Shown: piece after piece, positions 2,759 to 55,805 of the stretch
Position numbering within the stretch: position 1 is the stretch's first letter
How the letters are laid out: every line of letters begins with the position of its first letter
DNA from: Streptomyces sp. NBC_01294
GTDB lineage: Bacteria; Actinomycetota; Actinomycetes; Streptomycetales; Streptomycetaceae
Reading direction: 5' to 3'
DNA: 64,000 nucleotides
NCBI RefSeq assembly: GCF_035917235.1
Contig: NZ_CP108423.1
Coordinates: forward strand, 6,105,501 to 6,169,500
Translations under genes and position numbers: made by a program
Notes under the pieces: model-generated
What the model saw: only the letters and a program-made list of their open reading frames with translations
Databases searched by the model: none
Told to the model about the DNA's origin: nothing

Positions 2759-2781
2759 TTGTCGGTGGGGGCGCCTAGGAT
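2759..2781 (+). promoter_or_regulatory. RecA-NDp/PafBC-type damage promoter of polA
   Basis: TTGTCGGTG at 2759-2767, exactly eight bases, then TAGGAT at 2776-2781. This matches every defined position of the mycobacterial LexA-independent damage-promoter consensus TTGTCRGTG-N8-TANNNT. Only six bases separate the -10 hexamer from the GTG start, so the transcript is probably leaderless. Confidence 0.75.
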
Positions 2782-2787
2782 CGGGGC

Positions 2788-5508
2788 GTGGCAGATTCAG
2801 CATCGAAGAAGACCGACCAGACGACCGCAGCGGACCGCCCCCGCCTGATGCTCATGGACGGGCACTCCCTGGCGTACCGGGCGTTCTTCGCGCTGCCCGC
2901 GGAGAACTTCACGACCGCGACGGGCCAGCCGACCAACGCCATCTACGGCTTCGCGTCGATGCTGGCGAACACGCTGCGCGACGAGGCGCCCACGCACTTC
3001 GCGGTGGCGTTCGACGTGTCCCGCAAGACGTGGCGGTCGACCGAGTTCCCCGAGTACAAGGCGAACCGCTCCAAGACCCCCGACGAGTTCAAGGGGCAGG
3101 TGGAGCTGATCGGCGAGCTGCTCGACACGATGCACGTGCCGCGGTTCGCCGTCGACGGCTTCGAGGCCGACGACGTGATCGCGACGCTGGCGACGCAGGC
3201 GGAGGCCGCCGGCTTCGACGTGCTGATCGTCACCGGCGACCGGGACTCCTTCCAGCTGGTGTCCGAGCACACCACCGTGCTGTATCCGACGAAGGGCGTC
3301 TCCGAGCTCACCCGGTTCACGCCGGAGAAGGTCGAGGAGAAGTACGGGCTCACCCCGCAGCAGTACCCGGACTTCGCGGCGCTGCGCGGCGACCCGTCCG
3401 ACAATCTGCCGGGCATCCCGGGCGTCGGCGAGAAGACCGCAGCCAAGTGGATCACCCAGTTCGGGTCGTTCGCGGAGCTCGTGGAGCGTGCCGAGGAGGT
3501 CAAGGGCAAGGCCGGGCAGAACTTCCGGGACCACCTGGAGGCCGTCAAGCTCAACCGGGTCCTGACCGAGATGGTCAAGGACGTGGAACTGCCCAAGGCC
3601 CCCGCCGACCTGGCCCGCGTCGCGTACGACCGGACCGCCATGCTCGGTGTGCTCGACGTGCTGGAGATCCGCAACGCCTCGCTGCGCGAGCGGCTGCTCG
3701 CCGTGGACCCGGGCGCCGCCGAGGAGCCCGCCCCGGCTCCCGCGGCCAGTGTCGAGCTGGACGGGTCCGTGCTGGGCACGGGCGAGCTGGCGCCGTGGCT
3801 GGAGAGCCACGCGGGCGGGCCGCTGGGCATCGCGACCGTCGACAGCTGGGCCCTGGGCCAGGGCAGCATCAGCGAGATCGGGCTCGCTGCGGCCGCTGGC
3901 GCCGCCGCATGGTTCACGCCCGCCGAGCTGGACGAGGCCGACGAGCGGGCCTTCGCGGCCTGGGCCGCCGACCCGGCCAAGCCCAAGGTGGTGCACAACG
4001 CCAAGGGCCTGATGCGGGTCTTCCCCGAGCACGGCTGGAGCCTCGCGGGTGTCGCCATGGACACCGCGCTCGCCGCCTACCTGGTCAAGCCGGGCCGCCG
4101 GTCCTTCGACCTGGACGCCCTGTCCATGGAGTACCTGCACCGGGAGCTGGCGCCCGCCGCCGCCGACGGCCAGCTGGCCTTCGGCGCCGACGACACGGCC
4201 GAGGCCGAGGCGCTGATGGGGCAGGCCCGCGCGGTGCTGGACCTGGGCGACGCCTTCACCGACAAGCTCGCCGAGGTCGGTGCCGCGGAGCTGCTGCACG
4301 ACATGGAGCTGCCGACGTCCGAGCTCCTCGCCCGGATGGAGCGGTCGGGCATCGCCGCCGACCGCGACCACCTGGAGGCCATGGAGCAGCAGTTCGCCGG
4401 CGCCGTGCAGCAGGCGGTGAAGGAGGCGCACGCGGCGGTCGGCCACGAGTTCAACCTCGGTTCGCCCAAGCAGCTGCAGGAGGTCTTCTTCGGCGAGCTG
4501 GACCTGCCGAAGACGAAGAAGACCAAGACCGGCTACACCACGGACGCGGACGCGCTGGCCTGGCTGGCCACGCAGACGGACCACGAACTGCCGGTGATCA
4601 TGCTCCGCCACCGTGAGCAGGCCAAGCTGCGCGTCACCGTCGAGGGTCTGGTCAAGACCATCGCCGCCGACGGCCGGGTGCACACCAGCTTCAGCCAGAC
4701 CGTCGCCGCGACCGGCCGGCTGTCCTCCACCGACCCCAACCTGCAGAACGTGCCGGTGCGCACCGACGAGGGGCGCGCCATCCGCCGCGGCTTCGTCGTC
4801 GGCGAGGGCTTCGAGTCCCTCATGACGGCCGACTACAGCCAGATCGAGCTGCGCGTCATGGCCCACCTCTCCGAGGACGAGGGTCTGATCGAGGCGTTCG
4901 CGACCGGCGAGGACCTGCACACCACCGTCGCCTCCCAGGTGTTCGGGGTGGAGCGGTCCGCGGTCGACGCCGAGATGCGCCGCAAGATCAAGGCCATGTC
5001 GTACGGCCTCGCGTACGGGCTCTCCGCCTTCGGCCTCGCCCAGCAGCTGAACATCGAGCCCGCCGAGGCGCGCGGCCTGATGGAGACGTTCTTCGAGCGG
5101 TTCGGCGGGGTCCGCGAGTACCTGCAGCGCGTCGTGGACGAGGCCCGGGCCACCGGATACACGGCGACGGTCTTCGGCCGCCGCCGGTACCTGCCCGACC
5201 TCAACAGCGACAACCGCCAGCGCCGCGAGGCCGCCGAGCGGATGGCGCTCAACGCCCCGATCCAGGGCACCGCCGCCGACATCGTCAAGGTCGCGATGCT
5301 GCGCGTGGACAAGGCGATCGCCGAGGCCGGCCTGCGGTCGCGGATGCTGCTCCAGGTCCACGACGAAATCGTGCTGGAGATCGCCCCGGGCGAGCGCGAG
5401 CGGGTCGAGGAGCTGGTGCGCCGCGAGATGGGCGCCGCCGTCGAGCTCCGGGCCGCGCTGGACGTGTCCGTGGGCGTCGGCCCGGACTGGGAGTCCGCCG
5501 CGCACTGA
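2788..5508 (+). CDS. polA: DNA polymerase I
   Basis: A 906-residue DNA polymerase I that fills gaps and removes primers in replication and excision repair. The N-terminal 5' nuclease shows LMDGHSLAYRAFFALP, GFEADDVIATLA (about residue 125), VTGDRDSFQLV and the helix-hairpin-helix GIPGVGEKTA. The central 3'-5' exonuclease fold is present but the DxE motif is replaced by TVDSWALG and later acidic ligands are missing, so proofreading is probably absent, as in other actinobacterial PolA. Polymerase motifs are A (DYSQIELR, residue 682), B (RRKIKAMSYGLAYG, about 731) and C (VHDEIVLE, about 857). GTG start. A hairpin at 5524-5560 terminates it against the convergent DUF4184 gene. Confidence 0.98.
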   Translation: MADSASKKTDQTTAADRPRLMLMDGHSLAYRAFFALPAENFTTATGQPTNAIYGFASMLANTLRDEAPTHFAVAFDVSRKTWRSTEFPEYKANRSKTPDEFKGQVELIGELLDTMHVPRFAVDGFEADDVIATLATQAEAAGFDVLIVTGDRDSFQLVSEHTTVLYPTKGVSELTRFTPEKVEEKYGLTPQQYPDFAALRGDPSDNLPGIPGVGEKTAAKWITQFGSFAELVERAEEVKGKAGQNFRDHLEAVKLNRVLTEMVKDVELPKAPADLARVAYDRTAMLGVLDVLEIRNASLRERLLAVDPGAAEEPAPAPAASVELDGSVLGTGELAPWLESHAGGPLGIATVDSWALGQGSISEIGLAAAAGAAAWFTPAELDEADERAFAAWAADPAKPKVVHNAKGLMRVFPEHGWSLAGVAMDTALAAYLVKPGRRSFDLDALSMEYLHRELAPAAADGQLAFGADDTAEAEALMGQARAVLDLGDAFTDKLAEVGAAELLHDMELPTSELLARMERSGIAADRDHLEAMEQQFAGAVQQAVKEAHAAVGHEFNLGSPKQLQEVFFGELDLPKTKKTKTGYTTDADALAWLATQTDHELPVIMLRHREQAKLRVTVEGLVKTIAADGRVHTSFSQTVAATGRLSSTDPNLQNVPVRTDEGRAIRRGFVVGEGFESLMTADYSQIELRVMAHLSEDEGLIEAFATGEDLHTTVASQVFGVERSAVDAEMRRKIKAMSYGLAYGLSAFGLAQQLNIEPAEARGLMETFFERFGGVREYLQRVVDEARATGYTATVFGRRRYLPDLNSDNRQRREAAERMALNAPIQGTAADIVKVAMLRVDKAIAEAGLRSRMLLQVHDEIVLEIAPGERERVEELVRREMGAAVELRAALDVSVGVGPDWESAAH

Positions 5509-5523
5509 CCCGCGTACGCGCAC

Positions 5524-5560
5524 GCCCGTCCCCGCCGTAAGTCAGGCGGTGGGGACGGGC
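5524..5560. terminator. hairpin terminator between convergent polA and DUF4184 gene
   Basis: GCCCGTCCCC (5524-5533) pairs perfectly with GGGGACGGGC (5551-5560) around a 17-base loop. It lies just after the polA stop and overlaps the last codons of the opposing gene, so it may serve both directions. Confidence 0.6.
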
Positions 5561-6402: not shown

Positions 6403-6595
6403 GGCACCTCTCCTGGTTTCCGTGGACGTTCCCGTGGATGTTCCTTACTTCGGGCCAATGCGCCCGAAGGGTCCCGACAGTATGCGTGACCTGCGCGCGG
6501 ACGTGGCGATGTGGTGAATTCCGGCCCATCGTCCGTGCCCCTTGCAGGGAGTTGACATAGGGTCACGCGGACGTCGAGGGGGAGGGGTCCGGCTC

Positions 6596-20723: not shown

Positions 20724-20746
20724 TTGTCGGTGGCCCCGCCTAGACT
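20724..20746 (+). promoter_or_regulatory. RecA-NDp/PafBC-type damage promoter of SNF2-SWIM operon
   Basis: TTGTCGGTG at 20724-20732, eight bases, TAGACT at 20741-20746: a full match to TTGTCRGTG-N8-TANNNT. Transcription would start near 20753, leaving a leader of about 70 bases with GGGGGA just before the GTG start. Confidence 0.75.
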
Positions 20747-20820: not shown

Positions 20821-23685
20821 GTGACGGGACAGTCGCAGCCACGGCCGCGGCCATGGCCGCAGCCACCGCTGCAGGCATCCGCACTGCTGCGCCATGCCGC
20901 CGTCTTCCTGCCCGCCGCCGTGCCCCGCGAGGGGCGCGTCGCCTTCTGGGCCCCCGACGGCGATGCCCTGCCCGACATCGGCACGCCGGGACCGCTCACC
21001 GTCGTAGGACCGCACGGCGACGGGGTCCGCAGCCGGACCGTGCCCGCGGTGAGCTTCTCCGTCGCCTCCGCCCTGACCCTGCTCGCGCAGGCGCCCCGCA
21101 GCCCCGCCGCGCACGGCGCCACCCGCGCCTGGGGCACCGCCGCCGTGCAGGCGCTGACCCTGGCCGCCCGCGGCCGGCTGCTCCCCGGCCTCACCCCGGA
21201 GGGCGTCGACGCCTGGCGCGCCGGGCCGCTCGACGCCACCGACATCGACCACCTGCGCGCGGTCGCCGCCGCGCTGCCGTACGAGGGGTACGCGACGCCC
21301 CTGGCCGGCCGCCGTCCGCTCCAGCTGCCCGAACCGGAGGCGCTGGTCCGCGCGTTCCTCGACGCCGTCGCCGACGGACTGCCCCGCACCCCGGCCGCGG
21401 CCGTGGCCGCCGGGCGGCCGTTCGCCGCGCGGGAGGCGCAGCGGGTGCCCGGGATGGAGGCCTGGGCCGCGCAGGTCGCGGCCGGCTCCGACACCGGCGT
21501 GGGGATATCGCTGCGGCTCGACCTGTCCTCCTTCCGCCTCTTCGACGAGGCCGAGGGGGAGGACACTCGGCGGGCCGGGGCCGCCGTCGTCCAGGTGCAC
21601 AGCCTGGCCGATCCGACCCTGGTCACCGATGCCGGGCAGCTGTGGGCGGGCACGGCAGCGGCCGGGTTCGGCCCGCGCGCCCGGATCGACGCCGTGCTCG
21701 CGCTGCGCCGGGCCGCGCGGGTCTGGCCGCCCCTGCTGCGCCTGCTGGACCAGCCCGTGCCCGACGCCCTCGCCCTGTCCGACCCGGAGCTCGAAGACCT
21801 GCTGGGGGTGGTCGCGAGCCGGCTGGCGGCCGCCGGGGTCCTGGTCCACTGGCCGCGCGAGCTCGCCCGTACGCTGTCCGCGACCGCCGTCGTACGGTCC
21901 ACCGCGCCCGGTTCGGCGACCGACGGGACCGCCTTCTTCGACGCCGAGCACCTCTTCGCCTTCTCCTGGGAGCTGGCGCTGGGCGGCGACCGGCTCACCC
22001 CGGGGGAGATGGACGCGCTGGCCCAGGCCCACCGGCCCGTCGTACGGCTGCGGGACCAGTGGGTGCGGGTCGACCCGGAGCTGGTGCGCAAGGCGCGCAA
22101 GCGGGAGCTGGGCGTGCTGGATCCGGTGGACGCGCTGGCGACCGCGCTGTCGGGGACGGCCGAGGTCGACGGCCTGCCCGTCGAGGTGGTGCCGGTGGGG
22201 GCGCTGGCCGCCCTGCGGGAGCGGCTGACGGGGGAGCTGGCCCCGCTGCCGCAGCCCGCCGCGCTCAAGGCCACCCTGCGCGACTACCAGGCGCGCGGCC
22301 TGGCCTGGCTGGATCTGATGACCTCCCTCGGCCTCGGCGGCTGCCTCGCCGACGACATGGGCCTGGGCAAGACCGTCACGCTGATCGCGCTGCACCTGCA
22401 CCGGGACCGGCCCGAGCCGACGCTCGTGGTGTGTCCCGCGTCCCTCCTCGGCAACTGGCAGCGGGAGATCGAGAAGTTCGCCCCCGGCACGCCCGTGCGC
22501 CGCTTCCACGGCGGCAGCCGCAGCATCGAGGACCTGACGTCCAGCGCGGGCGGTTTCGTCCTCACCACGTACGGGACGATGCGCGCCAGCGCCCCCCTGC
22601 TCGCCGAACAGAGCTGGGGCATGGTCGTCGCCGACGAGGCACAGCACGTCAAGAACCCGCATTCGGCGACCGCGAAGGCGCTGCGCACGGTTCCGGCGCC
22701 GGCCCGGGTGGCGCTGACCGGTACCCCGGTGGAGAACAACCTCTCCGAGCTGTGGGCGCTGCTCGACTGGACCACGCCGGGGCTGCTCGGTCCGCTCACC
22801 GCGTTCCGGGCCCGCCACGCCCGCCCGGTGGAACACCAGCAGGAGGAGGACGGAGGCAATGAGGCGGCGGTCGCCCGGCTGTCCGCGCTCGTCCGGCCGT
22901 TCCTGCTGCGCCGCAAGAAGTCCGACCCCGGCATCGCGCCCGAGCTGCCGCCGAAGACGGAGACCGACCACCCGGTCTCGCTCACCCGGGAGCAGGTCTC
23001 GCTCTACCAGGCCGCGGTGGACGAGGCGATGGCCGTGATCGAGTCGAGCGAGGGCATGGAACGCCGCGGCATGATCATGAAGCTGCTGGCCTCGCTCAAG
23101 CAGATCTGCAACCACCCGGCGCAGTACCTGAAGGAGGAGCAGCCCCGGATCGCGCACCGCTCGGGGAAGCTCGCCCTGCTGGACGAGCTGCTCGACACGA
23201 TCCTGGCCGAGGGCGGCTCGGTGCTGGTCTTCACCCAGTACGTGACGATGGCCCGCCTCATCGAACGCCACCTGTCGGCCCGGGGCATCTCCCACCAGCT
23301 GCTGCACGGCGGGACGCCCGTGCCGCGCCGCGAGGAGCTCGTCGACCGCTTCCAGGCCGGTGAGGTCCCGGTCTTCCTGCTGTCCCTGAAGGCGGCGGGC
23401 ACCGGGCTGAACCTCACCCGGGCCGGCCACGTCATCCACTTCGACCGCTGGTGGAACCCCGCCGTCGAGGAGCAGGCCACCGACCGCGCCTACCGGATCG
23501 GCCAGACCCAGCCCGTGCAGGTCCACCGGATCATCGCCGAGGGCACCGTCGAGGACCGGATCGCGGAGATGCTGGAGGCGAAGCGGGCCCTGGCCGACGC
23601 CGTCCTCGGCTCCGGCGAGTCGGCGCTGACCGAGCTGACCGACCGCGAGCTGGCCGACCTCGTCTCCCTGCGGAGGCCCGCGTGA
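20821..23685 (+). CDS. SNF2-family helicase
   Basis: A 954-residue Swi2/Snf2 DNA translocase. A long N-terminal domain of about 450 residues (SNF2 helicase-associated type) precedes the ATPase. Walker A is ADDMGLGKTVTLIALHL (near 511-525), the DEAQ box is VVADEAQHVKNP (about 605), then LTGTPVENNLSELW, and the second lobe ends HFDRWWNPAVEEQATDRAYR with IGQ near 888. Such proteins move along double-stranded DNA to remodel protein-DNA complexes. The stop overlaps the SWIM gene start (GTGA), so the pair is translationally coupled. The damage-type promoter points to a repair role, which is inference. Confidence 0.9.
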   Translation: MTGQSQPRPRPWPQPPLQASALLRHAAVFLPAAVPREGRVAFWAPDGDALPDIGTPGPLTVVGPHGDGVRSRTVPAVSFSVASALTLLAQAPRSPAAHGATRAWGTAAVQALTLAARGRLLPGLTPEGVDAWRAGPLDATDIDHLRAVAAALPYEGYATPLAGRRPLQLPEPEALVRAFLDAVADGLPRTPAAAVAAGRPFAAREAQRVPGMEAWAAQVAAGSDTGVGISLRLDLSSFRLFDEAEGEDTRRAGAAVVQVHSLADPTLVTDAGQLWAGTAAAGFGPRARIDAVLALRRAARVWPPLLRLLDQPVPDALALSDPELEDLLGVVASRLAAAGVLVHWPRELARTLSATAVVRSTAPGSATDGTAFFDAEHLFAFSWELALGGDRLTPGEMDALAQAHRPVVRLRDQWVRVDPELVRKARKRELGVLDPVDALATALSGTAEVDGLPVEVVPVGALAALRERLTGELAPLPQPAALKATLRDYQARGLAWLDLMTSLGLGGCLADDMGLGKTVTLIALHLHRDRPEPTLVVCPASLLGNWQREIEKFAPGTPVRRFHGGSRSIEDLTSSAGGFVLTTYGTMRASAPLLAEQSWGMVVADEAQHVKNPHSATAKALRTVPAPARVALTGTPVENNLSELWALLDWTTPGLLGPLTAFRARHARPVEHQQEEDGGNEAAVARLSALVRPFLLRRKKSDPGIAPELPPKTETDHPVSLTREQVSLYQAAVDEAMAVIESSEGMERRGMIMKLLASLKQICNHPAQYLKEEQPRIAHRSGKLALLDELLDTILAEGGSVLVFTQYVTMARLIERHLSARGISHQLLHGGTPVPRREELVDRFQAGEVPVFLLSLKAAGTGLNLTRAGHVIHFDRWWNPAVEEQATDRAYRIGQTQPVQVHRIIAEGTVEDRIAEMLEAKRALADAVLGSGESALTELTDRELADLVSLRRPA

Positions 23686-24887
23686 TCACCGCGCGGGACG
23701 ACCGCCGCCGCACCTTCGAGACGGTGCCCGCCGGGGTCGCGGCGGTGAGCTGGTGGGGCCGGGCCTGGGTGTCGGCCTTGGAGGAGGTCTCCCACGACAC
23801 GGCCCGCCTGGCCCGGGGCCGTGCGTATGCCGAGCAGGGGCACGTCGACGCGGTGACCGTCACCCCGGGCCGGATCGTGGCGTACGTCCGGGGCAGCCGG
23901 CCCCGCCCGTACCGCACCGAGCTGACCCTGCCCGTCTTCGCGGACGCGGAGTGGAGCGAACTGCTGGAGGCGGTGGCGGCCGACCCCGCGGCGCTCGCCG
24001 CCCTGCTGGAGCGGGAGGTTCCGCAGTCGCTCGCGCAGAACGTCCTGCCCGGCGCGGGCGAGCTCGTCCCGCACTGCTCCTGCCCGGACGTCGGGCGTCC
24101 GCCGTGCAAGCACGCGGCGGCCCTCTGCTACCGGGCGGCCCGCCTCCTCGACGAGGACCCCTTCGTCCTGCTGCTCCTGCGCGGCCGGGGGGAGCGGGAG
24201 CTCCTGGACGAGCTCACCCGCCGCAATGCCGCCCACGCCGCGCGCGAACAGCCCGACGCGGCGCAGGACTTCCCCGGCGTCCCGGCCCGGGCGGCGCTCG
24301 CCCGCACCGGTCTGCCGCTGCTGCCCGCGCCGCTCCCCGCGCCCGCCGCCGCGGGCCTGCCGCCCGCCTACCCGGCCGACCCGGCGGCCCCGGACCCGCT
24401 CGCCCTCGACCAGCTCGCCTCCGACGCGGCCGCCCGCGCCCTCGCGCTCCTCACCACCGGCGAGGACCCGATCGCCGGGCTCACCGTCTGGCAGGACGCC
24501 GTCCGGCTGGCGTCCGCGCACGCCACGGCAGGCCTGACGGGCGCGGCCCGCACCCTCTACCGGGATCTGGCCCGCGCCACCGGCCGCACCACCACCGACC
24601 TCGCCCGGGCCGCCGCGGCCTGGCGCCAGGGCGGCCGCCCCGCCCTGGCCGCCCTGGAAGAGCCCTGGGATCCCCCGGCGGGCCCCTTCGACCGGGCCCG
24701 CCCGCTGCTCCTGGCCGCCGCCCAGGGCTCCTTCCGCCCCGAACGCAACCGCCTCACGGCACACACCCGCCAGCTCCGGCTCGGCCGCGACGCGCTCTGG
24801 TACGCCTACGAGTCCCGCCCGGACGACGAGGACTGGTGGCCCACGGGCCGCCCCTCCCCGGACCCGGTCACCGCCCTGCTGCGCTGA
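23682..24887 (+). CDS. SWIM zinc-finger protein
   Basis: A 401-residue protein with an N-terminal region beginning VITARDDRRRTFETVP and a SWIM zinc finger near residues 130-146 (HCSCPDVGRPPCKHAAAL: C-x-C, then C-x-H). The C-terminal half is Ala/Pro-rich and helical. SWIM domains bind DNA or proteins and recur beside SNF2 helicases. The GTG start overlaps the helicase stop and is preceded by GGAGG inside the helicase gene. The 3' end overlaps the convergent HAD gene by 20 bases. It probably acts in one complex with the helicase. Confidence 0.85.
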   Translation: MITARDDRRRTFETVPAGVAAVSWWGRAWVSALEEVSHDTARLARGRAYAEQGHVDAVTVTPGRIVAYVRGSRPRPYRTELTLPVFADAEWSELLEAVAADPAALAALLEREVPQSLAQNVLPGAGELVPHCSCPDVGRPPCKHAAALCYRAARLLDEDPFVLLLLRGRGERELLDELTRRNAAHAAREQPDAAQDFPGVPARAALARTGLPLLPAPLPAPAAAGLPPAYPADPAAPDPLALDQLASDAAARALALLTTGEDPIAGLTVWQDAVRLASAHATAGLTGAARTLYRDLARATGRTTTDLARAAAAWRQGGRPALAALEEPWDPPAGPFDRARPLLLAAAQGSFRPERNRLTAHTRQLRLGRDALWYAYESRPDDEDWWPTGRPSPDPVTALLR

Positions 24888-25416
24888 GCCCGGAGGCCCA
24901 GCGGGTCAATGTCGTGAAGTCGCGGTCGCGCAGGCCGTGGCGCGGGTGGATGCGCAGGAGGAGGGCAGGGGCCGGGTGGTGGGCGGCGACCCAGGCCCGG
25001 TCGCGGGGGGTGATCATGTCGTCGACCCAGGCGAAGGGGCGGCCGGCCGCCCAGTGGTGGAGGTGGCGGGTCTTCCACGAGAGGCCCTCGGGGTCTTCGG
25101 CGAAGAGTTCCGGCCATTCGACGACGGACAGGTCGCCGGGCAGCCCGATGTGCGGGGCGATCAACGTGTTGGCCTGGTGCGTCCAGGCGGTGGCCCAGGC
25201 GAGTTCGAAGGGCAGGGCCAGCAGCCGGGCCCCGTGGGACGGATGGAGGCGGACCCGCGTGCCGCGCCGGGCGCTGCGGGACTCCGGGTCGCGGTAGGAG
25301 AGCCAGATGTCCGGTCGCATCCGGTGGCTCCGGTACCCGCGCAGGCCGGCGAGGGGAGACCGGAAGGGATTGAGGGGGCCGTCCACGTCGAGGAGGAGCA
25401 GAGGGCGATCAGTCAT
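24868..25416 (-). CDS. HAD-domain protein
   Basis: A 182-residue protein that opens LLLLDVDGPLNPFRSP, the DxD nucleophile motif of haloacid dehalogenase-fold phosphatases, close to the short 'HAD domain in Swiss Army Knife RNA repair' group. A conserved-looking WATAWTHQAN and a late acidic WVDDMITPRD would complete the site. The substrate is unknown. It is convergent and overlapping with the SWIM gene and divergent from the chaplin. No sound ribosome site is visible before the ATG; the spacing to the chaplin gene is 128 bases. Confidence 0.75.
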   Translation of the reverse strand: MTDRPLLLLDVDGPLNPFRSPLAGLRGYRSHRMRPDIWLSYRDPESRSARRGTRVRLHPSHGARLLALPFELAWATAWTHQANTLIAPHIGLPGDLSVVEWPELFAEDPEGLSWKTRHLHHWAAGRPFAWVDDMITPRDRAWVAAHHPAPALLLRIHPRHGLRDRDFTTLTRWASGLSAAGR

Positions 25417-25544: not shown

Positions 25545-26279
25545 ATGCGTCACAGTCGTCGGAATGGCTTGATCGCGGCGGTGGTTGCGGGAGGTGGACT
25601 GGCGGTCGCGGGTGTGAGCGGATTCGCCCACGCCGACGCGGACGCGGATGGCCGGGCCGAACGCTCGCCGGGGCTGCTGTCCGGGAACCTGGTGCAGCTG
25701 CCCGTGCACGTCCCGGTGAACGCGTGCGGGAACACCGTGAGCGTGATCGGCGTACTCAACTCCGCCGCCGGCAACCGCTGTGTCAACGAGGCGCCGGGGG
25801 GTGGCGGCGGGCATTCCGGAAAGAAGTCCACGGGTCCGTCGACGTCAGGAGCCAGAAACGGCGGAGGCGCCGTGGCGGACGCACACGGAAAGGATTCCCC
25901 CGGGGTGCTGTCCGGCAACGGGCTGCAGCTTCCGGTCGAACTTCCGCTGAACATCAGCGGCAATGCCGTGAGCGTCGTCGGCGTCGGGAACTCCTCCCAC
26001 GGCAACACGTCCGTCAACGGTGAGGAGCCCAGCGGTCCCAAGCCCGTCCAGCCGCCCGTCGTCGAGCCGCCCGTCGTCGAGCCGCCCGTGGTCAAGCCGC
26101 CCGTGGTCGAGCCGCCCGTCGTGGAGCAGCCCGTGGCTCCGCAGGCGCGGCCGGCCCCGCCCCGGCACACCGAGGCCCTCGCCCACACCGGGGCCGACGG
26201 CATCGGCTACCTCCTGCCCGGCGGCGGAGCGCTGCTGCTCGGCGGAGCTCTCCTCTACCGCCGCTTCCGTCTCAACTGA
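25545..26279 (+). CDS. long chaplin with two domains and LAxTG sorting signal
   Basis: A 244-residue wall-anchored hydrophobin-like protein for aerial hyphae. It has a signal peptide (GLIAAVVAGGGLAVAGVSGF), chaplin domain 1 at about residues 43-86 containing CGNTVSVIGVLNSAAGNRC, a Gly/Ser linker, chaplin domain 2 at about 118-160, a PPVVEP repeat spacer, LAHTG at 212-216, a hydrophobic helix and a basic tail (YRRFRLN). LAxTG is the class E sortase motif. Domain 2 reads ISGNAVSVVGVGNSSHGNTS and lacks both Cys residues. ATG at 25545 follows GGGAAG. The adjacent opposite gene is a degenerate HtrA-like protein. Confidence 0.95.
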   Translation: MRHSRRNGLIAAVVAGGGLAVAGVSGFAHADADADGRAERSPGLLSGNLVQLPVHVPVNACGNTVSVIGVLNSAAGNRCVNEAPGGGGGHSGKKSTGPSTSGARNGGGAVADAHGKDSPGVLSGNGLQLPVELPLNISGNAVSVVGVGNSSHGNTSVNGEEPSGPKPVQPPVVEPPVVEPPVVKPPVVEPPVVEQPVAPQARPAPPRHTEALAHTGADGIGYLLPGGGALLLGGALLYRRFRLN

Positions 26280-28776: not shown

Positions 28777-30222
28777 TCACACCAGTCGGCGTATTTCCCC
28801 GCGGACCCGGTAGAAGCCCCCTGAGGCGGCGTGCAGACCGTCGACCACGTACCGGGCGCCCGCCTCCCGGATCCCGCGCGGGAACTGCACGTTCCACGAG
28901 GGCTCGAAGCCGCCCGACACCACGTGGACCCGCATCCGGCCGCCCTGCTGGACGCACTCCACCACCACACCGCCCGCCGGCGCCGAGGCCATCGAAACCG
29001 TCGCCACCGCCGCGGCCGACGCGGCCGGGGTGAACACCGGCAGCGCCGCGGCCGACTTCACGTCCACCGGCGCCGGGACCGAGCCCTGCTGGGCCGACGC
29101 GATCGCCTGCTCGCTCGCATCCACGCAGACCAGCGAACCGTCGGTGGTGACGAGGTACAGCCGCTCGTCCAGGTACTGCATGGACAGCGCCGACCCGCCG
29201 CCGGTCCCCAGCTTCCACAGCCGCCGCCCGTCGGCGTCGAAGCAGTAGACCGAGGAGGAGGAGTCCGCGGCGAAGACGTGCCGTCCGTCGGGCGAGGTCG
29301 CGCACGAGTACACCGCGGCGTCACACGCGTAGGAGACCTCTATCGCGCCGGTGGCCTTCGACAGCCGCTGCACGGAGTTGCGGACCGTGCCCGCATACAC
29401 CGCGTGGTCCTCCTGCCAGCCGAACAGCACCCCGCCGGGGGTCCTGGTGTGCCACAACTGCCCGGTGCCGTCCGCGGCATAGGCCGTCACACCGCCGCTG
29501 TGCCCGTGGAAGACGGCGCGCTCGTCCGCCCGGACCATCCAGGCGCCCGTTCCGCCGGACTTGCGCGACCACTGGTGCTCGTCCTCGTGGTCGATGACGG
29601 TCAGGCCGCCACCCGCGTCGGAGACATTCAGAACGCCCTCGTGGATGTCGAGCCAGTAGATGTCCACATCCGCCGCGATCGTGTAGGCCCCGAAGGGAAC
29701 CTTCGACGACAGGTCGTACACCGTGCCGTCGTCACAGCCCGCGTATATCCAGAAGTCGTCCGCCACCAGGCACTTCACCCCGTCCGGCAGCGAATACCGG
29801 GCCAGCACCTCGCCGCCGTGGCTCAGCGTGTAGACGTCGCCGGCCTGGTTGCCGACCCAGCAGCGGTCCTCGTCCACATGGATCCCGAAGGCCGCGGAGC
29901 CGGTACGGAAACGCCACAGCACCGGAGCCACCGCGCGGGCCGTCGACGGCGCCGAGGTCACCTGGCGGCGGGTCACCGACCGGGCGGCGCGCTGCCCCTG
30001 CACGGCCGGGGCGTACCCCTTGCGTACCTTCTCCCCGACCTTCTTGGCGGCGGCCGCCCGGGCCTTCTCGGCGGTCGGGAACGAGGAGACCGTCAGCTGG
30101 CCGTCCGCGCCGATGCGTCCGTACCGCACGGAGACGGCCGTGCCGTCCACGGTCACCTCGTAGAACTTGTGCGCCCCGCCGCCATCCTGCGACAGCTCCA
30201 GGTACGTCGTCTCCCGAGCCAT
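28777..30222 (-). CDS. WGR-domain beta-propeller protein
   Basis: A 481-residue protein. Residues 5-75 are a WGR domain (TYLELSQDGGGAHKFYEVTV, then AVSVRYGRIGADGQLTVSSF with TAEKARAAAAKKV), found in PARPs and in bacterial nucleic-acid proteins. Residues about 100-400 form a PQQ/WD-like beta-propeller with blades such as WVGNQAGDVYTLSHGGEVLA and VYCFDADGRRLWKLGTGGGS. The last 80 residues are Ala/Val-rich, then a small domain with GGFYRVRGEIRRLV. There is no signal peptide. GGGGAGGGG precedes the ATG. A full RecA-NDp/PafBC-type motif lies at 30287-30309. No enzymatic activity is evident; a nucleic-acid-binding damage-response role is inferred. Confidence 0.85.
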   Translation of the reverse strand: MARETTYLELSQDGGGAHKFYEVTVDGTAVSVRYGRIGADGQLTVSSFPTAEKARAAAAKKVGEKVRKGYAPAVQGQRAARSVTRRQVTSAPSTARAVAPVLWRFRTGSAAFGIHVDEDRCWVGNQAGDVYTLSHGGEVLARYSLPDGVKCLVADDFWIYAGCDDGTVYDLSSKVPFGAYTIAADVDIYWLDIHEGVLNVSDAGGGLTVIDHEDEHQWSRKSGGTGAWMVRADERAVFHGHSGGVTAYAADGTGQLWHTRTPGGVLFGWQEDHAVYAGTVRNSVQRLSKATGAIEVSYACDAAVYSCATSPDGRHVFAADSSSSVYCFDADGRRLWKLGTGGGSALSMQYLDERLYLVTTDGSLVCVDASEQAIASAQQGSVPAPVDVKSAAALPVFTPAASAAAVATVSMASAPAGGVVVECVQQGGRMRVHVVSGGFEPSWNVQFPRGIREAGARYVVDGLHAASGGFYRVRGEIRRLV

Positions 30223-30286: not shown

Positions 30287-30309
30287 ACGTTAGGGCCGAC
30301 CACTGACAA
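30287..30309 (-). promoter_or_regulatory. RecA-NDp/PafBC-type damage promoter of WGR gene
   Basis: On the minus strand TTGTCAGTG (30309-30301), eight bases, then TAACGT (30292-30287): full match to TTGTCRGTG-N8-TANNNT. Its -35-like half overlaps a GACAAT (30305-30310) that could be the -10 of the divergent kinase-like gene. Confidence 0.75.
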
Positions 30310-35933: not shown

Positions 35934-36497
35934 TCAGAACAGCGGCTGCGGCAGCACGCCCTCCAGTGCGAGCAGCTGTCGCTTCGTCTCCACGCCCCCG
36001 CCGAACCCGCCGATGCCCCCGTCGTTCTCCACGACCCGGTGGCAGGCCACCACCAGCGGCAGCGGATTCGACCCCATCGCGTTGCCCACGGCCTGGGCGG
36101 CGCCGGGCTGTCCGGCCCGGGCGGCCAGTTCCCCGTAGCCGACGACCGAGCCGTACGGCACGGACCGGTCGAGCTCCTGGAGCACCTGCCGGTTGAAACC
36201 GGAGCTGAGGCGCCAGTCCAGCGGCAGCTCGAAGCGCCGCAGCGAACCGGCGAAGTACGCGGCGAGCTGGCGTATCGGCTCGGCGAGGAGCACTTCCTCG
36301 CCCGGCGCGGGCCGCAGGGCGTCGGCGCCGAGCCGCGAGACGAGCGGGCCGATCATCCGGTCGACCCGGTCCGGCTCGGCATGGAACTCGACCCGGACCA
36401 GGCCGTCCGGGGTCGCGGCCAGGAGGAGGGGACCGATGTCGCTGGCGACGACGGTCCATTCGAGGTGCGGCCCGCGGGGCCGCTCGGTGCTGTCCAC
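35934..36497 (-). CDS. ogt: methylated-DNA-[protein]-cysteine S-methyltransferase
   Basis: A 187-residue suicide repair protein that removes alkyl groups from O6-alkylguanine. The C-terminal half has RQVLQELDRSVPYGSVVGYG, the DNA-binding turn AQAVGNAMGSNPLPLVV, then ACHRVV with acceptor Cys152, and GGFGGGVETKRQLLALEGVL. The usual PCHRV has Ala in place of Pro at 151. The GTG start has a G-rich sequence before it; TACGGT ends six bases upstream as part of a RecA-NDp/PafBC-type motif, so expression should rise with damage. Located between an exporter and GDPD. Confidence 0.92.
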   Translation of the reverse strand: MDSTERPRGPHLEWTVVASDIGPLLLAATPDGLVRVEFHAEPDRVDRMIGPLVSRLGADALRPAPGEEVLLAEPIRQLAAYFAGSLRRFELPLDWRLSSGFNRQVLQELDRSVPYGSVVGYGELAARAGQPGAAQAVGNAMGSNPLPLVVACHRVVENDGGIGGFGGGVETKRQLLALEGVLPQPLF

Positions 36498-36503: not shown

Positions 36504-36526
36504 ACCGTACGGCTCCCCCCTGACAA
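36504..36526 (-). promoter_or_regulatory. RecA-NDp/PafBC-type damage promoter of ogt
   Basis: Minus strand: TTGTCAGGG (36526-36518), eight bases, TACGGT (36509-36504). One mismatch to TTGTCRGTG-N8-TANNNT. Six bases separate the -10 from the GTG start, so the message is probably leaderless. Confidence 0.65.
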
Positions 36527-37756: not shown

Positions 37757-37779
37757 GTGTCAGTGGGGGGTCGTACGGT
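37757..37779 (+). promoter_or_regulatory. RecA-NDp/PafBC-type damage promoter of uvrB
   Basis: GTGTCAGTG (37757-37765), eight bases, TACGGT (37774-37779): eight of nine upstream positions match TTGTCRGTG and the spacing is exact. The -10 ends six bases before the uvrB ATG and there is no ribosome site, so a leaderless message is likely. Confidence 0.7.
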
Positions 37780-37785
37780 TGACTC

Positions 37786-39930
37786 ATGCGGCCCGTATCG
37801 AAGATCGAACGCACGGTGGCGCCTTTCGAGGTCGTCAGCCCCTACCAGCCCAGCGGCGACCAGCCGGCGGCCATCGCCGACCTGGAGAAGCGCATCCGCG
37901 CAGGTGAGAAGGATGTCGTCCTGCTGGGTGCGACCGGCACCGGCAAGTCGGCGACCACTGCCTGGATGATCGAGAAGCTTCAGCGCCCCACCCTGGTCAT
38001 GGCGCCGAACAAGACCCTCGCCGCCCAGCTGGCGAACGAGTTCCGCGAGCTCCTGCCGAACAACGCCGTCGAGTACTTCGTCTCGTACTACGACTACTAC
38101 CAGCCCGAGGCGTACGTACCGCAGTCGGACACGTACATCGAGAAGGACTCCTCGATCAACGAGGAGGTGGAGCGGCTGCGCCACTCCGCGACCAACTCGC
38201 TGCTGACCCGGCGGGACGTGATCGTCGTCGCCTCCGTGTCCTGCATCTACGGCCTCGGCACCCCGCAGGAATACGTCGACCGGATGGTCTCCCTCAAGAT
38301 CGGCGAGGAGATCGACCGGGACCAGCTGCTGCGCCGCTTCGTGGACATCCAGTACACCCGCAACGACGTGGCCTTCACCCGGGGCACCTTCCGGGTGCGC
38401 GGCGACACCATCGAGATCTTCCCGGTCTACGAGGAACTGGCCGTCCGCATCGAGATGTTCGGCGACGAGATCGAGGCCCTCTCCACCCTGCACCCGCTGA
38501 CCGGCGAGGTCATCAGCCAGGACCGCGATCTGTACGTCTTCCCCGCCAGCCACTACGTCGCCGGTCCGGAGCGCATGGAGAAGGCGATCACCGGCATCGA
38601 GGCCGAGCTGGCCGGGCGCCTCGCCGAGCTGGAGAAGCAGGGCAAGATGCTGGAGGCGCAGCGTCTGCGCATGCGCACCACGTACGACCTGGAGATGATG
38701 CGGCAGATCGGGTCCTGCTCCGGCATCGAGAACTACTCGCTGCACATGGACGACCGCGAGCGCGGTTCCGCGCCCAACACCCTCATCGACTACTTCCCGG
38801 AGGACTTCCTCCTGGTCATCGACGAGTCGCACGTCACCGTGCCGCAGATCGGCGCCATGTACGAGGGCGACGCCTCCCGCAAGCGGACCCTCGTCGACCA
38901 CGGCTTCCGGCTGCCGTCGGCCCTCGACAACCGGCCGCTGAAGTGGGAGGAGTTCCAGCAGCGGATCGGCCAGACCGTCTACCTGTCGGCGACCCCGGGC
39001 AAGTACGAGCTCTCGCGCGGCGACGGCTTCGTCGAGCAGATCATCCGCCCCACCGGCCTCATCGACCCCGAGGTCGTGGTCAAGCCCACCGAGGGCCAGA
39101 TCGACGACCTGGTGCACGAGATCCGGGAGCGGGTGGAGAAGGACGAGCGCGTCCTGGTCACCACCCTCACCAAGAAGATGTCCGAGGACCTGACGGACTA
39201 CTTCCTGGAGCTCGGCATCCAGGTCCGCTACCTGCACAGCGACGTGGACACCCTGCGCCGCATCGAGCTGCTGCGCGAGCTGCGCTCCGGCGAGTACGAC
39301 GTCCTGGTCGGCATCAACCTGCTGCGCGAGGGCCTCGACCTGCCCGAGGTGTCCCTGGTGGCGATCCTCGACGCCGACAAGCAGGGCTTCCTGCGCTCCG
39401 GGACCTCGCTCATCCAGACCATCGGCCGCGCGGCGCGCAACGTCTCGGGCCAGGTCCACATGTACGCGGACACCATCACCCCGGCGATGGCCCAGGCGAT
39501 CGACGAGACCAACCGCCGCCGGGAGAAGCAGGTCGCCTACAACACCGCGCACGGGATCGACCCGCAGCCGCTGCGCAAGAAGATCAACGACATCGTCGCG
39601 ACCATCGCCCGCGAGGAGCTGGACACCGAGCAGCTCCTCGGCACGGGCTATCGGCAGACGAAGGACGGCAAGGCCCTCAAGGCGCCGGTGCCGGCGCTGG
39701 GCGGCAAGGCGTCCGGGGCCAAGGCGGCCAGGGGTGCCAAGGGCGCCAAGGCGGCCGAGGTGCTCACCGACCGGCCCGCCGCAGAACTGGCCGCGCTCAT
39801 CGAGCAGATGACCGAGCGCATGCGCGGGGCGGCCGCGGAGCTCCAGTTCGAGGTCGCGGCCCGGATCCGGGACGAGGTGGGCGAGCTGAAGAAGGAGTTG
39901 CGGCAGATGAAGGAAGCGGGCCTCGCCTGA
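37786..39930 (+). CDS. uvrB: excinuclease ABC subunit B
   Basis: A 714-residue damage-verifying helicase of nucleotide excision repair. Walker A is [20 protein letters not shown], the beta-hairpin region is [20 protein letters not shown], motif II is [15 protein letters not shown], motif VI is [20 protein letters not shown] linker with an Ala/Lys/Gly-rich stretch ([20 protein letters not shown]) precedes the C-terminal UVR motif, which contacts UvrC. Damage-type promoter upstream. TerD begins 90 bases downstream with no clear terminator between, so some read-through is likely. Confidence 0.98.
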
Positions 39931-46758: not shown

Positions 46759-46943
46759 GACGCCGAGCCTAGTGGTTTCGGGCCTCCGGCCACACGATCG
46801 GGTGAAGAGGTCTGCGGAGTGCCGTAAATCGAATGTGCGTGCTATACGCTCGAAGTTCAGACTCATCTCCACTGCAGTGGCGCCCCCCATACCCTGGGAC
46901 GGGGGCCCGTGCCCCCGCTCTCTCAAGAAAGGTGCGGACCGGC

Positions 46944-49940
<2,997 letters not shown>

Positions 49941-51428: not shown

Positions 51429-51432
51429 AGCG

Positions 51433-52317: not shown

Positions 52318-52440
52318 GCGGGGGAAGCTACCCCATGCGACGGCGGTATCGTCGGGTGGGCCGGTGACCCGGCCGGGCTCCGGCCCGCGCCCGCCCGCCC
52401 GCGCCCCCGCCCCACCGTGCCCGCACCTCAGGAGAACCGC

Positions 52441-52872: not shown

Positions 52873-52875
52873 CCC

Positions 52876-52955
52876 GCCCGACCGGCGGGCGGCCCGACCG
52901 CCCGCCCCCGACCGCCCGACCGCCCGACCGCCCGCCCCCGACCGACCGCCCTCCC
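52876..52955. repeat. CCCGACCG-rich simple-sequence tract
   Basis: A pyrimidine-rich block after the Rieske stop made of CCGACCGCC/CGCCC units. A 21-base segment starting at 52893 is repeated exactly at 52923. It contains a small GCCCG/CGGGC hairpin and may act as a terminator. Confidence 0.7.
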
Positions 52956-52960
52956 GGGAC

Positions 52961-53893: not shown

Positions 53894-53904
53894 GGCGACT
53901 CCTC

Positions 53905-54013
53905 TGTGAACGTTCACACGCGCCACGCGCCGGCGCGGAGGATCGCGGCGGCGGTTCCGGGGGACCAGGTGAAACGGCAGCAACCGTTCACACCACAGCC
54001 CCACCGTTCACAC
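53905..54013. promoter_or_regulatory. GTTCACAC motif cluster in divergent promoter region
   Basis: TGTGAACGTTCACA (53905-53918) is a perfect palindrome. CGTTCACAC recurs at 53911, 53985 and 54005, the last two exactly 20 bases apart. They lie between the XRE-like gene and the protease pair, and are candidate operators for that regulator. Confidence 0.6.
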
Positions 54014-54130
54014 TGCGATGTCACCGCGTATTGAAGCGTGTTGACCTGATCGCGACAACTCCCCGATGCTCCTCCACAGCGTCCGGACGCGCTCCTCCAC
54101 CCCCCCACTCCCCACCTCGGGAGGAACGCG

Positions 54131-54730
54131 ATGCGCAACCGAAACCGGCGGCTTTCCCCGGCCGCCCTCCTCACCGTCCTGCTCCTCGCCCTGTCCGCCG
54201 GCACCGCCACCGCCGCCGATGCCGGCTCGGACACCGCGAGCGCAGCCCTCGCCTCCAAGCGGCTGAACATCACCATGCAGGCGCAGGCCAAGACCAACTG
54301 GTGCTGGGCCGCGGGCGGCAACACCATCGCCACCTGGTTCGGCCGCACCTACAGCCAGAACCAGTTCTGCAACGCCGCCTTCAACCGCCAGCAGGGCACC
54401 GACTGCCCCAACAACCAGGCCACTCTCGGCAACGTCCAGACCGGGCTGCGCTGGGCGGGCATCAACCCCGGCTCGTACGTGAACGGCTGGCTCCAGTACT
54501 CCACCGTCCAGACCGAGATCAACGCCAACCGCCCGATCGAGACCCGGATCCAGTGGTCGGGCGGCGGCGGCCACATGCACGTCGTCTACGGCTACGACAC
54601 CGCGAGCAACTGGGTCTACTGGGGAGACCCCTGGCCCTCCAGCGACCGCTACAACTGGGCCTCGCACGCCTGGTACGTCAACAACAACACCTTCTCCTGG
54701 ACCCACTCGCTCTACCGGATCGGGGCGTGA
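54131..54730 (+). CDS. secreted papain-like cysteine protease (C70/AvrRpt2 type)
   Basis: A 199-residue exported protein: signal peptide (SPAALLTVLLLALSAGTATA) and a papain-fold catalytic domain. Catalytic Cys58 is in KTNWCWAAGG, His148/His150 in GGGGHMHVVYGYD, and WGDPW near 165 supplies the Asp/Asn. NNQATLGNVQTGLRW and INANRPIETRIQW lie between. This is the C70 family, best known from the plant effector AvrRpt2. The substrate is unknown. GGGAGGAACG precedes the ATG. It overlaps or abuts the following membrane protein gene. Confidence 0.86.
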   Translation: MRNRNRRLSPAALLTVLLLALSAGTATAADAGSDTASAALASKRLNITMQAQAKTNWCWAAGGNTIATWFGRTYSQNQFCNAAFNRQQGTDCPNNQATLGNVQTGLRWAGINPGSYVNGWLQYSTVQTEINANRPIETRIQWSGGGGHMHVVYGYDTASNWVYWGDPWPSSDRYNWASHAWYVNNNTFSWTHSLYRIGA

Positions 54731-54735
54731 CCGCC

Positions 54736-55509
54736 ATGACGCTGCGCGCCACCACCGCCGGCGCGGTCCTCGCCGCCACCGCCCTCCTCGGGCTCGCCCC
54801 GCAGGCGTCCGCGGCCCCCGTGCCCCAGCCCCAGGCCGCCACCGCCGAGACCAGGGCCGCCGCCGCGCAGGCGGCTGCCGCCCCCGACACCCTGGCCACC
54901 CTCTCCCGCTTCTTCGCCCGGGAGGGCCGGCTCTCCCCGGCCGCCGCGCGGCCCCGCATCGAGGGCGAGGCGATACCGGTCCACCACCTCTCCCCGGACT
55001 TCGTCGCGGGCAAGGCGGGCGCGTCCGTCGCCCGCCTGGAGTTCCTCGCCAGCAAGGCGGTCTCCTCCGACGGGCAGCAGGCCGCCCTGTGGACGGCGAA
55101 GACGGAGGCCGGCTGGCAGGTCGTGAACATCGCCACCGGCGACGACGAATTCCGTTACGCGCGGCTGGGCGCCGAGAGACTGCCCGGCGGGACGGTCTTC
55201 CGGGAACCGCAGATCGACGCCTGGTACGTGGCCGGGCCGAGCCGGGTGCTGCCGCTGGACGAGGACGCGGTGCGGGCCGTCGGCGCCGGGGGCACCACGC
55301 TGAACGCCTACCGGGCCCGGGTCGGGGCGGCGTACGGGGACAAGCTTCCCGGCTCCGCCTATGCCGAAGGGGGCGTGGCGGGTGGTTACGCGGAGCCCGG
55401 CCCGCAGGACTCCGGGGCTCCGGTGGCCATGGCGGCCGTCGGTGTGGCGCTCGCGCTGGGTGCTGCCGGGGTGTCGGCCCTGCGGCGCCGCCGGCCCGCC
55501 GTCGCGTAG
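54736..55509 (+). CDS. secreted, C-terminally membrane-anchored protein
   Basis: A 257-residue protein: signal peptide (MTLRATTAGAVLAATALLGL), an Ala-rich region, a soluble domain with LSRFFAREGRLSPAAARPRI, ALWTAKTEAGWQVVNIATGD and AWYVAGPSRVLPLDEDAVRA, and a C-terminal helix (VAMAAVGVALALGAAGVSAL) with a RRRR stop. Family not recognised. It starts six bases after the protease stop (or at GTG 54727 overlapping it), so the two are translationally linked. It may hold, inhibit or present the protease at the membrane; this is inference. Confidence 0.7.
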   Translation: MTLRATTAGAVLAATALLGLAPQASAAPVPQPQAATAETRAAAAQAAAAPDTLATLSRFFAREGRLSPAAARPRIEGEAIPVHHLSPDFVAGKAGASVARLEFLASKAVSSDGQQAALWTAKTEAGWQVVNIATGDDEFRYARLGAERLPGGTVFREPQIDAWYVAGPSRVLPLDEDAVRAVGAGGTTLNAYRARVGAAYGDKLPGSAYAEGGVAGGYAEPGPQDSGAPVAMAAVGVALALGAAGVSALRRRRPAVA

Positions 55510-55587
55510 CCATTGCCCCCGCAGGGCCCGGCTCCCCGCCAGGTGCCGGGCCCTGCAGGGCCTTCCCCCACCCCGCCCTTTCACCGT

Positions 55588-55720
55588 TTCCCGGGGCTCC
55601 GCCCCGGACCCCGCGCCTCAAACGCCGGCGGGGCTGGTTGGGGGGCTCCGCCCTGCCCGGACCCCGCGCCTCAAGCGCCGGCGGGGCTGAATCCCAGCCC
55701 CGCCGGCGCTTGAGGCGGGG
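55588..55720. repeat. palindromic repeat cluster before uvrC
   Basis: Two direct copies of the GCGCCTCAA-type repeat (55613 and 55666) and an inverted copy. The last two form a perfect 23-bp stem (55667-55689 with 55695-55717) with a five-base loop, a strong terminator. It fills most of the 303-base gap 55510-55812; the remainder holds the uvrC promoter. Confidence 0.85.
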
Positions 55721-55782
55721 CGCGGAGCGCCGTAGGGGGGTCCCCGGCAAGCCCGCACACCGCGCCGGAGGCGTACGGTCCG

Positions 55783-55805
55783 TTGTCAGCCCGCGCAAGT
55801 AGGGT
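55783..55805 (+). promoter_or_regulatory. RecA-NDp/PafBC-type damage promoter of uvrC operon
   Basis: TTGTCAGCC (55783-55791), eight bases, TAGGGT (55800-55805). Seven of nine upstream positions match TTGTCRGTG, spacing exact. The -10 ends seven bases before the uvrC ATG without a ribosome site. Confidence 0.6.

Follow-up and report, generated by a model that had tools for sequence, protein, structure and literature searches.

The 64,000-nucleotide stretch of Streptomyces sp. NBC_01294 DNA analyzed here (the window) raises the question of whether genes spread along it, among them four repair genes, share one damage-responsive activator. The initial annotation had described six promoters of the RecA-NDp/PafBC type, each with the pattern TTGTCRGTG-N8-TANNNT at exact N8 spacing. 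A motif scan of the window recovers all six at the same coordinates, on the same strands, and with the same mismatch counts. As had also been claimed, every site (6/6) lies upstream of a gene and points along the direction of that gene.

2759..2781, + strand: putative polA promoter of PafBC/RecA-NDp type, 0 mismatches to TTGTCRGTG-N8-TANNNT
20724..20746, + strand: putative SNF2-SWIM operon promoter of the same type, 0 mismatches
30287..30309, - strand: putative WGR gene promoter of the same type, 0 mismatches
36504..36526, - strand: putative ogt promoter of the same type, 1 mismatch
37757..37779, + strand: putative uvrB promoter of the same type, 1 mismatch
55783..55805, + strand: putative uvrC promoter of the same type, 2 mismatches to the long pattern, core exact

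Set against shuffled DNA, as the initial annotation had proposed, the window is strongly enriched. The M. tuberculosis PafBC core given in the literature, TGTCRG-N10-TANNNT (PMC8151990), has exactly six exact matches in the window, all of them at these sites, versus 0.07 expected from shuffles, and allowing up to two mismatches to the long pattern yields nine matches versus 0.97 expected, a number reached in 0 of 100 shuffles. A degenerate pattern can also be matched by chance in GC-rich DNA, and some matches do look accidental: the three additional ones in the window (4747, 17365, and 41995, all on the - strand) fall inside coding regions, as judged from polA or a crude gene map, and 17 of 69 genomic sites with at most one mismatch have no plausible gene, so that part of these 69 are chance matches. 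Genome-wide, however, the full pattern is matched exactly at 17 sites (16 if the terminal-repeat copy is left out) versus none for the reversed pattern, and 76 versus 3 when one mismatch is allowed; the motif is moreover conserved at orthologues, as detailed below. Taken together, the six sites already refute chance, to which we assign practically no probability as their explanation. The enrichment extends to all 12 sampled Streptomyces genomes, our own included, which carry 10 to 40 exact copies each (284 in total versus 2 for the reversed control).

The initial annotation had argued from the density of the sites to a shared regulon. Density proves to be a weak argument: five sites with at most one mismatch in 64 kb, versus 0.52 expected, give p = 2e-4 for a single window and p = 0.027 after correction for 133 windows, and the sites are crowded here because polA, uvrB, and uvrC are neighbors. 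The regulon reading itself, and with it the assignment to RecA-NDp/PafBC-type promoters, is supported instead by spacer specificity, orthologue conservation, the repair targets, and an intact PafBC.

Domain matches agree with the gene names proposed earlier, including those of the four repair genes, which are listed here together with uvrA.

2788..5508, + strand: polA, encoding DNA polymerase I, predicted leaderless (494 bits to Pfam DNA_pol_A; the two 5'-3' exonuclease domains are also present)
35934..36497, - strand: ogt, methylated-DNA-protein-cysteine methyltransferase, predicted leaderless (PF01035, 100.3 bits)
37786..39930, + strand: uvrB, predicted leaderless (UvrB_inter, UvrB, and UVR domains)
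46932..49940, + strand: uvrA, with no such promoter in this genome
55813..57819, + strand: uvrC, predicted leaderless (UvrC_RNaseH_dom, GIY-YIG, UVR, and HHH domains)

The motif recurs in front of these genes in relatives of the strain, with the qualification that the relatives share kinship and the counts are not independent. With at most two mismatches, it precedes polA in all 11 relatives in which the polA N terminus is covered (the -10 hexamer being CAGGAT in 10 of these) and ogt in 19 of 19 relatives with the gene, although at two ogt loci the mapped start is 125 and 230 nt away from the site. For uvrB, it is found in 19 of 20 relatives and at 21 further actinobacterial loci; 25 of 46 uvrB loci with Actinomycetota titles, a count made from titles, show no motif, and 2 of these 25 have almost no upstream DNA. 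Conservation is looser at uvrC, where the left half of the motif is poorly kept: 8 of 13 relatives have it with at most two mismatches, three have it at the same place with three mismatches, and two lack it. A seventh membership, that of uvrA in this genome, was considered and rejected, the best match having four mismatches; among relatives, 7 of 19 carry the motif there (six exact, one with one mismatch) and 12 do not.

Two further, unknown loci had been assigned to the regulon on the basis of their promoters.

20821..23685, + strand: SNF2-type helicase of the SCO1167/SCO6262 family (NF058637, 1534.6 bits, cut-off 1200; SNF2-rel_dom, DUF3670, Helicase_C)
23682..24887, + strand: SWIM zinc-finger protein (PF04434, 23.6 bits, cut-off 19.6; crude codon-based gene map)
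28777..30222, - strand: protein with a WGR domain and a beta-propeller-like part (PF05406, 62.6 bits, cut-off 22; PQQ_2, 41.2 bits, cut-off 27.6)

The start of the SWIM gene, for which an open reading frame at 23753-25297 was initially taken and then dropped, overlaps the SNF2 stop codon, and the two genes probably form one operon. The SNF2 GTG (20821) follows the -10 hexamer by 74 nt and the WGR ATG (30222, - strand) by 64 nt. Upstream of SNF2, the core motif is present in 28 of 30 loci read, four with GTG (our own included), 21 with a GACC variant, and three with other sequences, such that most relatives have GACC in place of GTGN; two loci lack a core match. The WGR motif is found in all 26 genomes that have the gene, our own included (21 exact, five with one mismatch), and is kept even where the gene has a different chromosomal location. 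This conservation supports counting both the WGR gene and the SNF2-SWIM operon as predicted regulon members, whose leaders here would measure about 60 to 70 nt. M. tuberculosis HelZ (Rv2101) was considered as a damage-induced SNF2 relative and set aside; the terms HelZ and Rv2101 are absent from the text of PMC8151990.

The architecture of the sites closely resembles that of the Mycobacterium RecA-NDp/PafBC promoters, with the TGTCRG element 10 nt before TANNNT and repair genes behind. When the spacer is allowed to vary from 2 to 20, 17 of 22 matches in our genome have N8, and across 21 regions, namely the window and those of 20 relatives, the core has 82 matches at N8 and at most two at any other spacer. 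No conserved -35 element is evident, as 36 sites show at most 0.22 bit across the 44 preceding columns and 0.40 bit in the base adjoining the motif. Unlike in Mycobacterium, A is favored at the degenerate position of TGTCRG (11 of 17 exact sites, or 10 of 16 when the repeat copy is excluded, compared with 0 of 7 in Mycolicibacterium sphagni), 29 of 36 sites have a G directly after the 9-mer, and a large share of the targets is predicted to be leaderless. Plausible genes lie behind 52 of the 69 genomic sites, and at least 20 of these 52, a raw count, have domains that mark them as genes of DNA repair or replication; a macrodomain gene comes in addition.

Is PafBC the regulator that reads these sites? 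PafB and PafC are encoded near pafA in this genome and score 192 and 165 bits, respectively, against the solved M. smegmatis complex, and all eight single-stranded DNA-binding residues named for PafBC (PMC11804915) are conserved. Alternatively, another activator or an alternative sigma factor might read the same promoters while Streptomyces PafBC does something else. Streptomyces has about 60 sigma factors (PMC6742748), PafC-like domains are found in other classes that lack the motif, and among 19 genomes with a strong PafC, three lack the uvrB motif and three lack any exact motif. Against this, the -10 sequence is TANNNT, the general -10 element of S. lividans (PMC6742748), the element and spacing equal those of M. 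tuberculosis PafBC (PMC8151990), and PafB gives a close alignment with its M. smegmatis counterpart over the N-terminal region. In addition, the uvrB motif is found in 16 of the 19 strong-PafC genomes versus 0 of 4 others (p = 0.004), a contrast drawn from 23 hand-chosen genomes out of 80 loci with only four lacking a strong PafC. We consider a different regulator unlikely. Co-occurrence of PafC and motif at the level of the phylum was rejected as an argument; it is one-sided because PafC-like helix-turn-helix matches reach classes in which the motif is hardly enriched (51 matches in 261 genomes, versus 30 for the control), and PafC is present in every one of the 35 genomes sampled from the strain's own class.

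The genes could also belong to the LexA/RecA SOS response, with the motif incidental. The SOS regulon of S. venezuelae is likewise a DNA-damage regulon, includes recA and ruvC as the motif-associated set does, and possibly includes uvrA (PMC9380542), but it has another motif and another regulator. In searches with an SOS box consensus, no SOS-box-like site (at most two mismatches) lies within 150 bp of any of the six sites, the window as a whole has two such sites, just as many as shuffles give on average, a half-site pattern is likewise absent near the six, and only 1 of the 69 genomic sites has an SOS-box-like site within 150 bp. LexA was rejected on these grounds as the common regulator, and we regard an SOS origin as very improbable.

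We conclude that the six sites are, very probably, promoters that depend on PafBC and belong to a DNA-damage regulon spread over the genome, which would lie mostly outside LexA control. The sequence shows the element, the fixed spacing, the missing -35 element, the conservation, the target genes, and the intact PafBC; the mechanism is carried over from M. smegmatis. By analogy, single-stranded DNA released by damage would bind the WYL domains of PafB and PafC, PafBC would then join the RNA polymerase holoenzyme containing the housekeeping sigma factor, and PafB would read the TGTCRG element at about -26, allowing the complex to open the TANNNT -10 element despite the lack of a -35 element.

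What is new here is the geometry of the start codons, which predicts leaderless mRNA at many targets, with transcription starting at the first base, A or G, of the start codon itself. The start codon follows the -10 hexamer by 6 nt at polA (GTG, 2788), ogt (GTG, 36497, - strand), and uvrB (ATG, 37786) and by 7 nt at uvrC (ATG, 55813). Relative to the start codon, the hexamer thus spans -12 to -7 in the first three genes and lies one base further away in the fourth, a placement expected to set the transcription start at the A or G of ATG or GTG. Genome-wide, a start codon lies 6 to 7 nt after the hexamer at 27 of the 52 sites with a plausible gene (p = 9e-7 against the 21% Streptomyces background). 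Of all 69 sites, 28 have a start codon at one of these two offsets versus 2.7 expected, a count that takes in two sites lacking a plausible gene and omits one of 59 codons. For recA, the frame counted as leaderless starts 36 nt before what we take to be the recA start. All 21 actinobacterial uvrB loci with the motif show the leaderless geometry. Leaderless mRNAs make up 20 to 21% of Streptomyces genes (PMC6742748) and likewise have a -10 hexamer directly before the start codon; the share at motif sites is higher. The PafBC damage response of Actinomycetes might, tentatively, be a largely leaderless regulon in which the start codon is built into a single module, roughly 30 bp long, together with the -26 and -10 elements. 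That uvrB has retained this module in genera from Streptomyces to Arthrobacter, Nocardioides, Nocardia, and Mycolicibacterium is part of the same proposal and is put forward with equal reserve. A limited literature search found no link between leaderless mRNAs and PafBC; in one paper containing both terms, PafBC appears only as a reference.

The S. rimosus recA gene reportedly has a RecA-NDp promoter, as Ahel is said to have described in 2002. A promoter of this type has also been published for S. coelicolor SCO6735 (PMC5087735), and a macrodomain gene of our genome, the same kind of gene, has an exact site. Those cases share promoter type and genus with ours and concern single genes, whereas the present sites are genome-wide and come with conservation and start-codon geometry. 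A RecA/LexA-independent response in Streptomyces was left open by a 2022 study because, in an initial search, the M. smegmatis motif seemed not to be conserved in S. venezuelae. A limited literature search found no Streptomyces ciprofloxacin transcriptome naming uvrB. Our analysis turns the question left open by the 2022 study into a short list of testable promoters and adds the SNF2-SWIM and WGR proteins as DNA repair candidates. The leaderless geometry further suggests a translation-level feature of the damage response and, if the largely leaderless reading is true, would tie the response to both sigma adaptation and leaderless translation initiation.

The initial annotation described six matches to TTGTCRGTG-N8-TANNNT, the promoter type of the LexA/RecA-independent damage response (RecA-NDp) attributed to the activator PafBC, and read them as a shared regulon. 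All six are present as described:

2759, plus strand, site at polA
20724, plus strand, site at the SNF2-SWIM gene
30309, minus strand, site at the WGR gene
36526, minus strand, site at ogt
37757, plus strand, site at uvrB
55783, plus strand, site at uvrC

Their core, TGTCRG-10N-TANNNT, corresponds to the PafBC pattern published for M. tuberculosis, as given in an excerpt of PMC8151990. The window contains six exact matches to it, all at these sites; dinucleotide shuffles of the window contain a mean of 0.07 matches and a maximum of 1. Because the core is exact at all six, the one or two mismatches first reported for ogt, uvrB, and uvrC lie outside it. The six-site observation is confirmed. Elsewhere in the window, a short frame at 25905-26279 on the plus strand carries a ChpA-C (chaplin) domain (44.9 bits).

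The genome-wide scan with exact N8 that had been suggested as a check yielded 17 exact matches in the 8.51 Mb genome (two contigs; the window spans 6105501-6169500 of NZ_CP108423.1) versus 0 for a reversed-pattern control. Allowing up to one mismatch, the full pattern occurs 76 times and the reversed pattern 3 times; a long terminal repeat contributes seven duplicate copies, which leaves 69 distinct sites, 16 of them exact. With the spacer left free from 2 to 20, N8 accounts for 17 of 22 matches, and four of the other five belong to two copies of one element. We also analyzed the 60 kb surrounding uvrB in 20 relatives out of 40 other genomes of the genus, picked for contig size and blind to the motif (uvrB here is 85, 87, and 95% identical over the best segment to that of three named Streptomyces). 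Across these relatives and the window, TGTCRG is followed by TANNNT at the N8 position in 82 cases, and no other spacer from 2 to 15 yields more than two. The great majority of these matches (70 of 82) precede uvrB (20), ogt (20), SNF2 (10), uvrC (8), uvrA (7), WGR (3), or polA (2), and seven of the remaining 12 precede a single gene with a TerD-like-looking product, downstream of uvrB. This gene, ≈2.2 kb past the uvrB start, has the core motif in 7 of the 20 relatives and none in the window.

Conservation was scored in the 20 relatives over a span running from 250 nt upstream to 60 nt downstream of the mapped start, allowing up to two mismatches. The motif precedes uvrB in 19 of 20; in the remaining relative, the spacer is shorter by one base. 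It precedes ogt in all 19 that have the gene, two of which carry it farther off, at 125 and 230 nt from that start. It is present in all 11 relatives whose sequence covers the polA N terminus (−10 element CAGGAT in 10; two with only the later part of the gene were excluded) and in 8 of 13 for uvrC, where three more carry a match with three mismatches in the corresponding place and the last two lack one. For uvrA, 7 of 19 relatives carry the motif ahead of a leader (six exact, one with one mismatch), and none was found by the same criteria at uvrA of this genome (window 46932-49940); members of the regulon therefore come and go between species.

The SNF2-SWIM and WGR loci were each searched in 61 genomes, including this one. 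The WGR gene occurs in 26, always with the motif upstream (21 exact, five with one mismatch), including at least five genomes (G003, G004, G012, G014, and G024) in which it lies megabases away from uvrB. A relative of the SNF2 gene occurs in 60 genomes; in the 400 nt upstream of the best 30 loci, 28 have the core motif and two have none. After TGTCRG, the GTG of the long pattern is found at only four of these 28 loci, GACC at 21, and other bases at three, making the GTG triplet the less constrained portion of the motif at SNF2. The 21 loci, within L273-L295, read TGTCRGACC instead of TGTCRGTGG, a variant fixed at one gene. On sequence grounds, both the regulon reading of the six sites and the assignment of WGR and SNF2-SWIM to it, which is new, are well supported.

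A codon score, trained on genes of the window, was used to judge the genes behind the 69 sites, and all plausible ones were domain-scanned. A plausible gene follows 52 sites and none follows 17. By domain, at least 20 of the 52 function in DNA repair, recombination, or replication, given as a raw count. They comprise recA, dnaX, polA, the SNF2 helicase, a RecD2-HHH protein, ruvC, uracil-DNA glycosylase, an Exo_endo_phos nuclease, a GyrA/ParC subunit, a DinG-like helicase, Lhr, a UvrD helicase, RadA, a DNA polymerase III delta-type subunit, an AlkZ-like glycosylase, a PD-(D/E)XK nuclease, RarA/MgsA, PriA, uvrB, and ogt. Another target, L004, encodes a macrodomain protein scoring 248 bits to PDB 5e3b, which we take to be SCO6735. 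PMC5087735 describes S. coelicolor SCO6735 as UV-inducible and as having a published RecA-NDp promoter; L004/SCO6735 serves as an independent positive control for the motif. Targets unrelated to repair by domain include two ABC transporter subunits, an HxlR regulator, a SpoIIE phosphatase, and a ferredoxin-like protein, and some sites at such genes are probably chance matches. At L006 (NZ_CP108423.1, 3181390-3184412), a divergent motif pair (3182830, minus; 3182890, plus) separates a SWIM zinc-finger gene, with an exact and predicted leaderless site, from a MoxR-type AAA gene whose site has one mismatch; the putative regulon then counts two SWIM genes.

We counted ATG or GTG codons that begin an open frame of 60 codons or more behind each of the 69 sites. 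Measured from the end of the −10 hexamer, offsets 6 and 7 hold 12 and 16 starts (16 ATG and 12 GTG), versus an average of 1.34 across the remaining offsets from 0 to 59 (p ≈ 3e-19). For recA, the frame at offset 7 opens 36 nt ahead of what we take to be the known Streptomyces RecA start. A start at offset 6 or 7 coincides with the codon score at 27 of the 52 sites with a plausible gene, above the share of leaderless genes given in PMC6742748 (≈20% in S. lividans, 21% in S. coelicolor; p = 9e-7). In the 20 relatives, 23 and 26 starts fall at the two offsets across 69 sites, mostly orthologues of a few genes. Among 80 uvrB loci of mixed phyla, 22 have the motif (up to two mismatches) near the start of the uvrB match; 21 are actinobacterial, all with an ATG or GTG 6 to 7 nt past the −10 element, in the uvrB frame and open, and the other lies inside a proteobacterial gene. 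The motif is absent from 25 of the 46 uvrB loci titled Actinomycetota, in two because the record has almost no upstream DNA. Mycolicibacterium sphagni has 46 sites with up to one mismatch versus 9 reversed, and the signal is weaker, offsets 6, 7, and 8 accounting for 4, 4, and 2 starts over 30 sites read. At four M. sphagni loci (L214, L222, L236, and L238), an ATG within a GAAC-ATG-GTTC-like palindrome comes shortly after the motif, an arrangement that looks like a PafBC site and a LexA site fused over the start codon. Where TANNNT occupies −12 to −7, transcription is expected to begin at the start codon; leaderless mRNAs are thus predicted at these sites. This geometry is new among the papers searched. 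Both "leaderless" and "PafBC" occur in PMC7790235, where the single PafBC mention is a reference, and in PMC10936776.

The regulator itself is encoded near the Pup ligase gene, as PafB (WYL and WCX domains) and PafC (HTH_PafC, 97 bits; cut-off 32). Comparison with the M. smegmatis chains of PDB 7p5x gives 192 bits for PafB and 165 bits for PafC. The alignments show conservation of PafB R181, Y196, R204, R208, R211, and R214 and of PafC R201 and R204, the residues mutated to test ssDNA binding in PMC11804915, where the PafC pair alone is reported to matter less. Across 296 genomes of the phylum, exact motifs number 284 in the 12 of this genus, this genome included (control 2), 135 in 23 others of the class (control 1; at least one match in 16 of the 23), and 51 in 261 of other classes (control 30). 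The PafC HTH exceeds the cut-off in 192 of the 296, and PafC-like proteins alone therefore do not predict the motif. In 23 genomes drawn from the 80 uvrB loci, the uvrB motif occurs in 16 of 19 with strong PafC (92 bits or more) versus 0 of 4 without (p = 0.004), the latter being two Bifidobacterium (none), a Rothia MAG (weak match), and Mobiluncus (30 bits, counted just above the cut-off). Exact motifs in these 23 total 138 (control 1), including 28 in S. tendae, 10 in S. oceani, and 7 in M. sphagni; there are none in the four genomes without strong PafC, nor in three with it (Actinotalea, Corynebacterium, and Microbacterium).

For S. venezuelae, passages of PMC9380542 report that an initial motif search suggested a lack of conservation of the M. 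smegmatis motif, and that the existence of such a response in Streptomyces remains to be shown. A possible reason for that negative search is base preference, with TGTCAG in 11 of 17 exact sites of this genome and TGTCGG in all seven of M. sphagni. RecA-NDp promoters are known for recA of S. rimosus and in other Actinobacteria, as excerpts of PMC5087735 and PMC8223512 indicate. This kind of promoter is already known; its scale and its conservation in Streptomyces are new.
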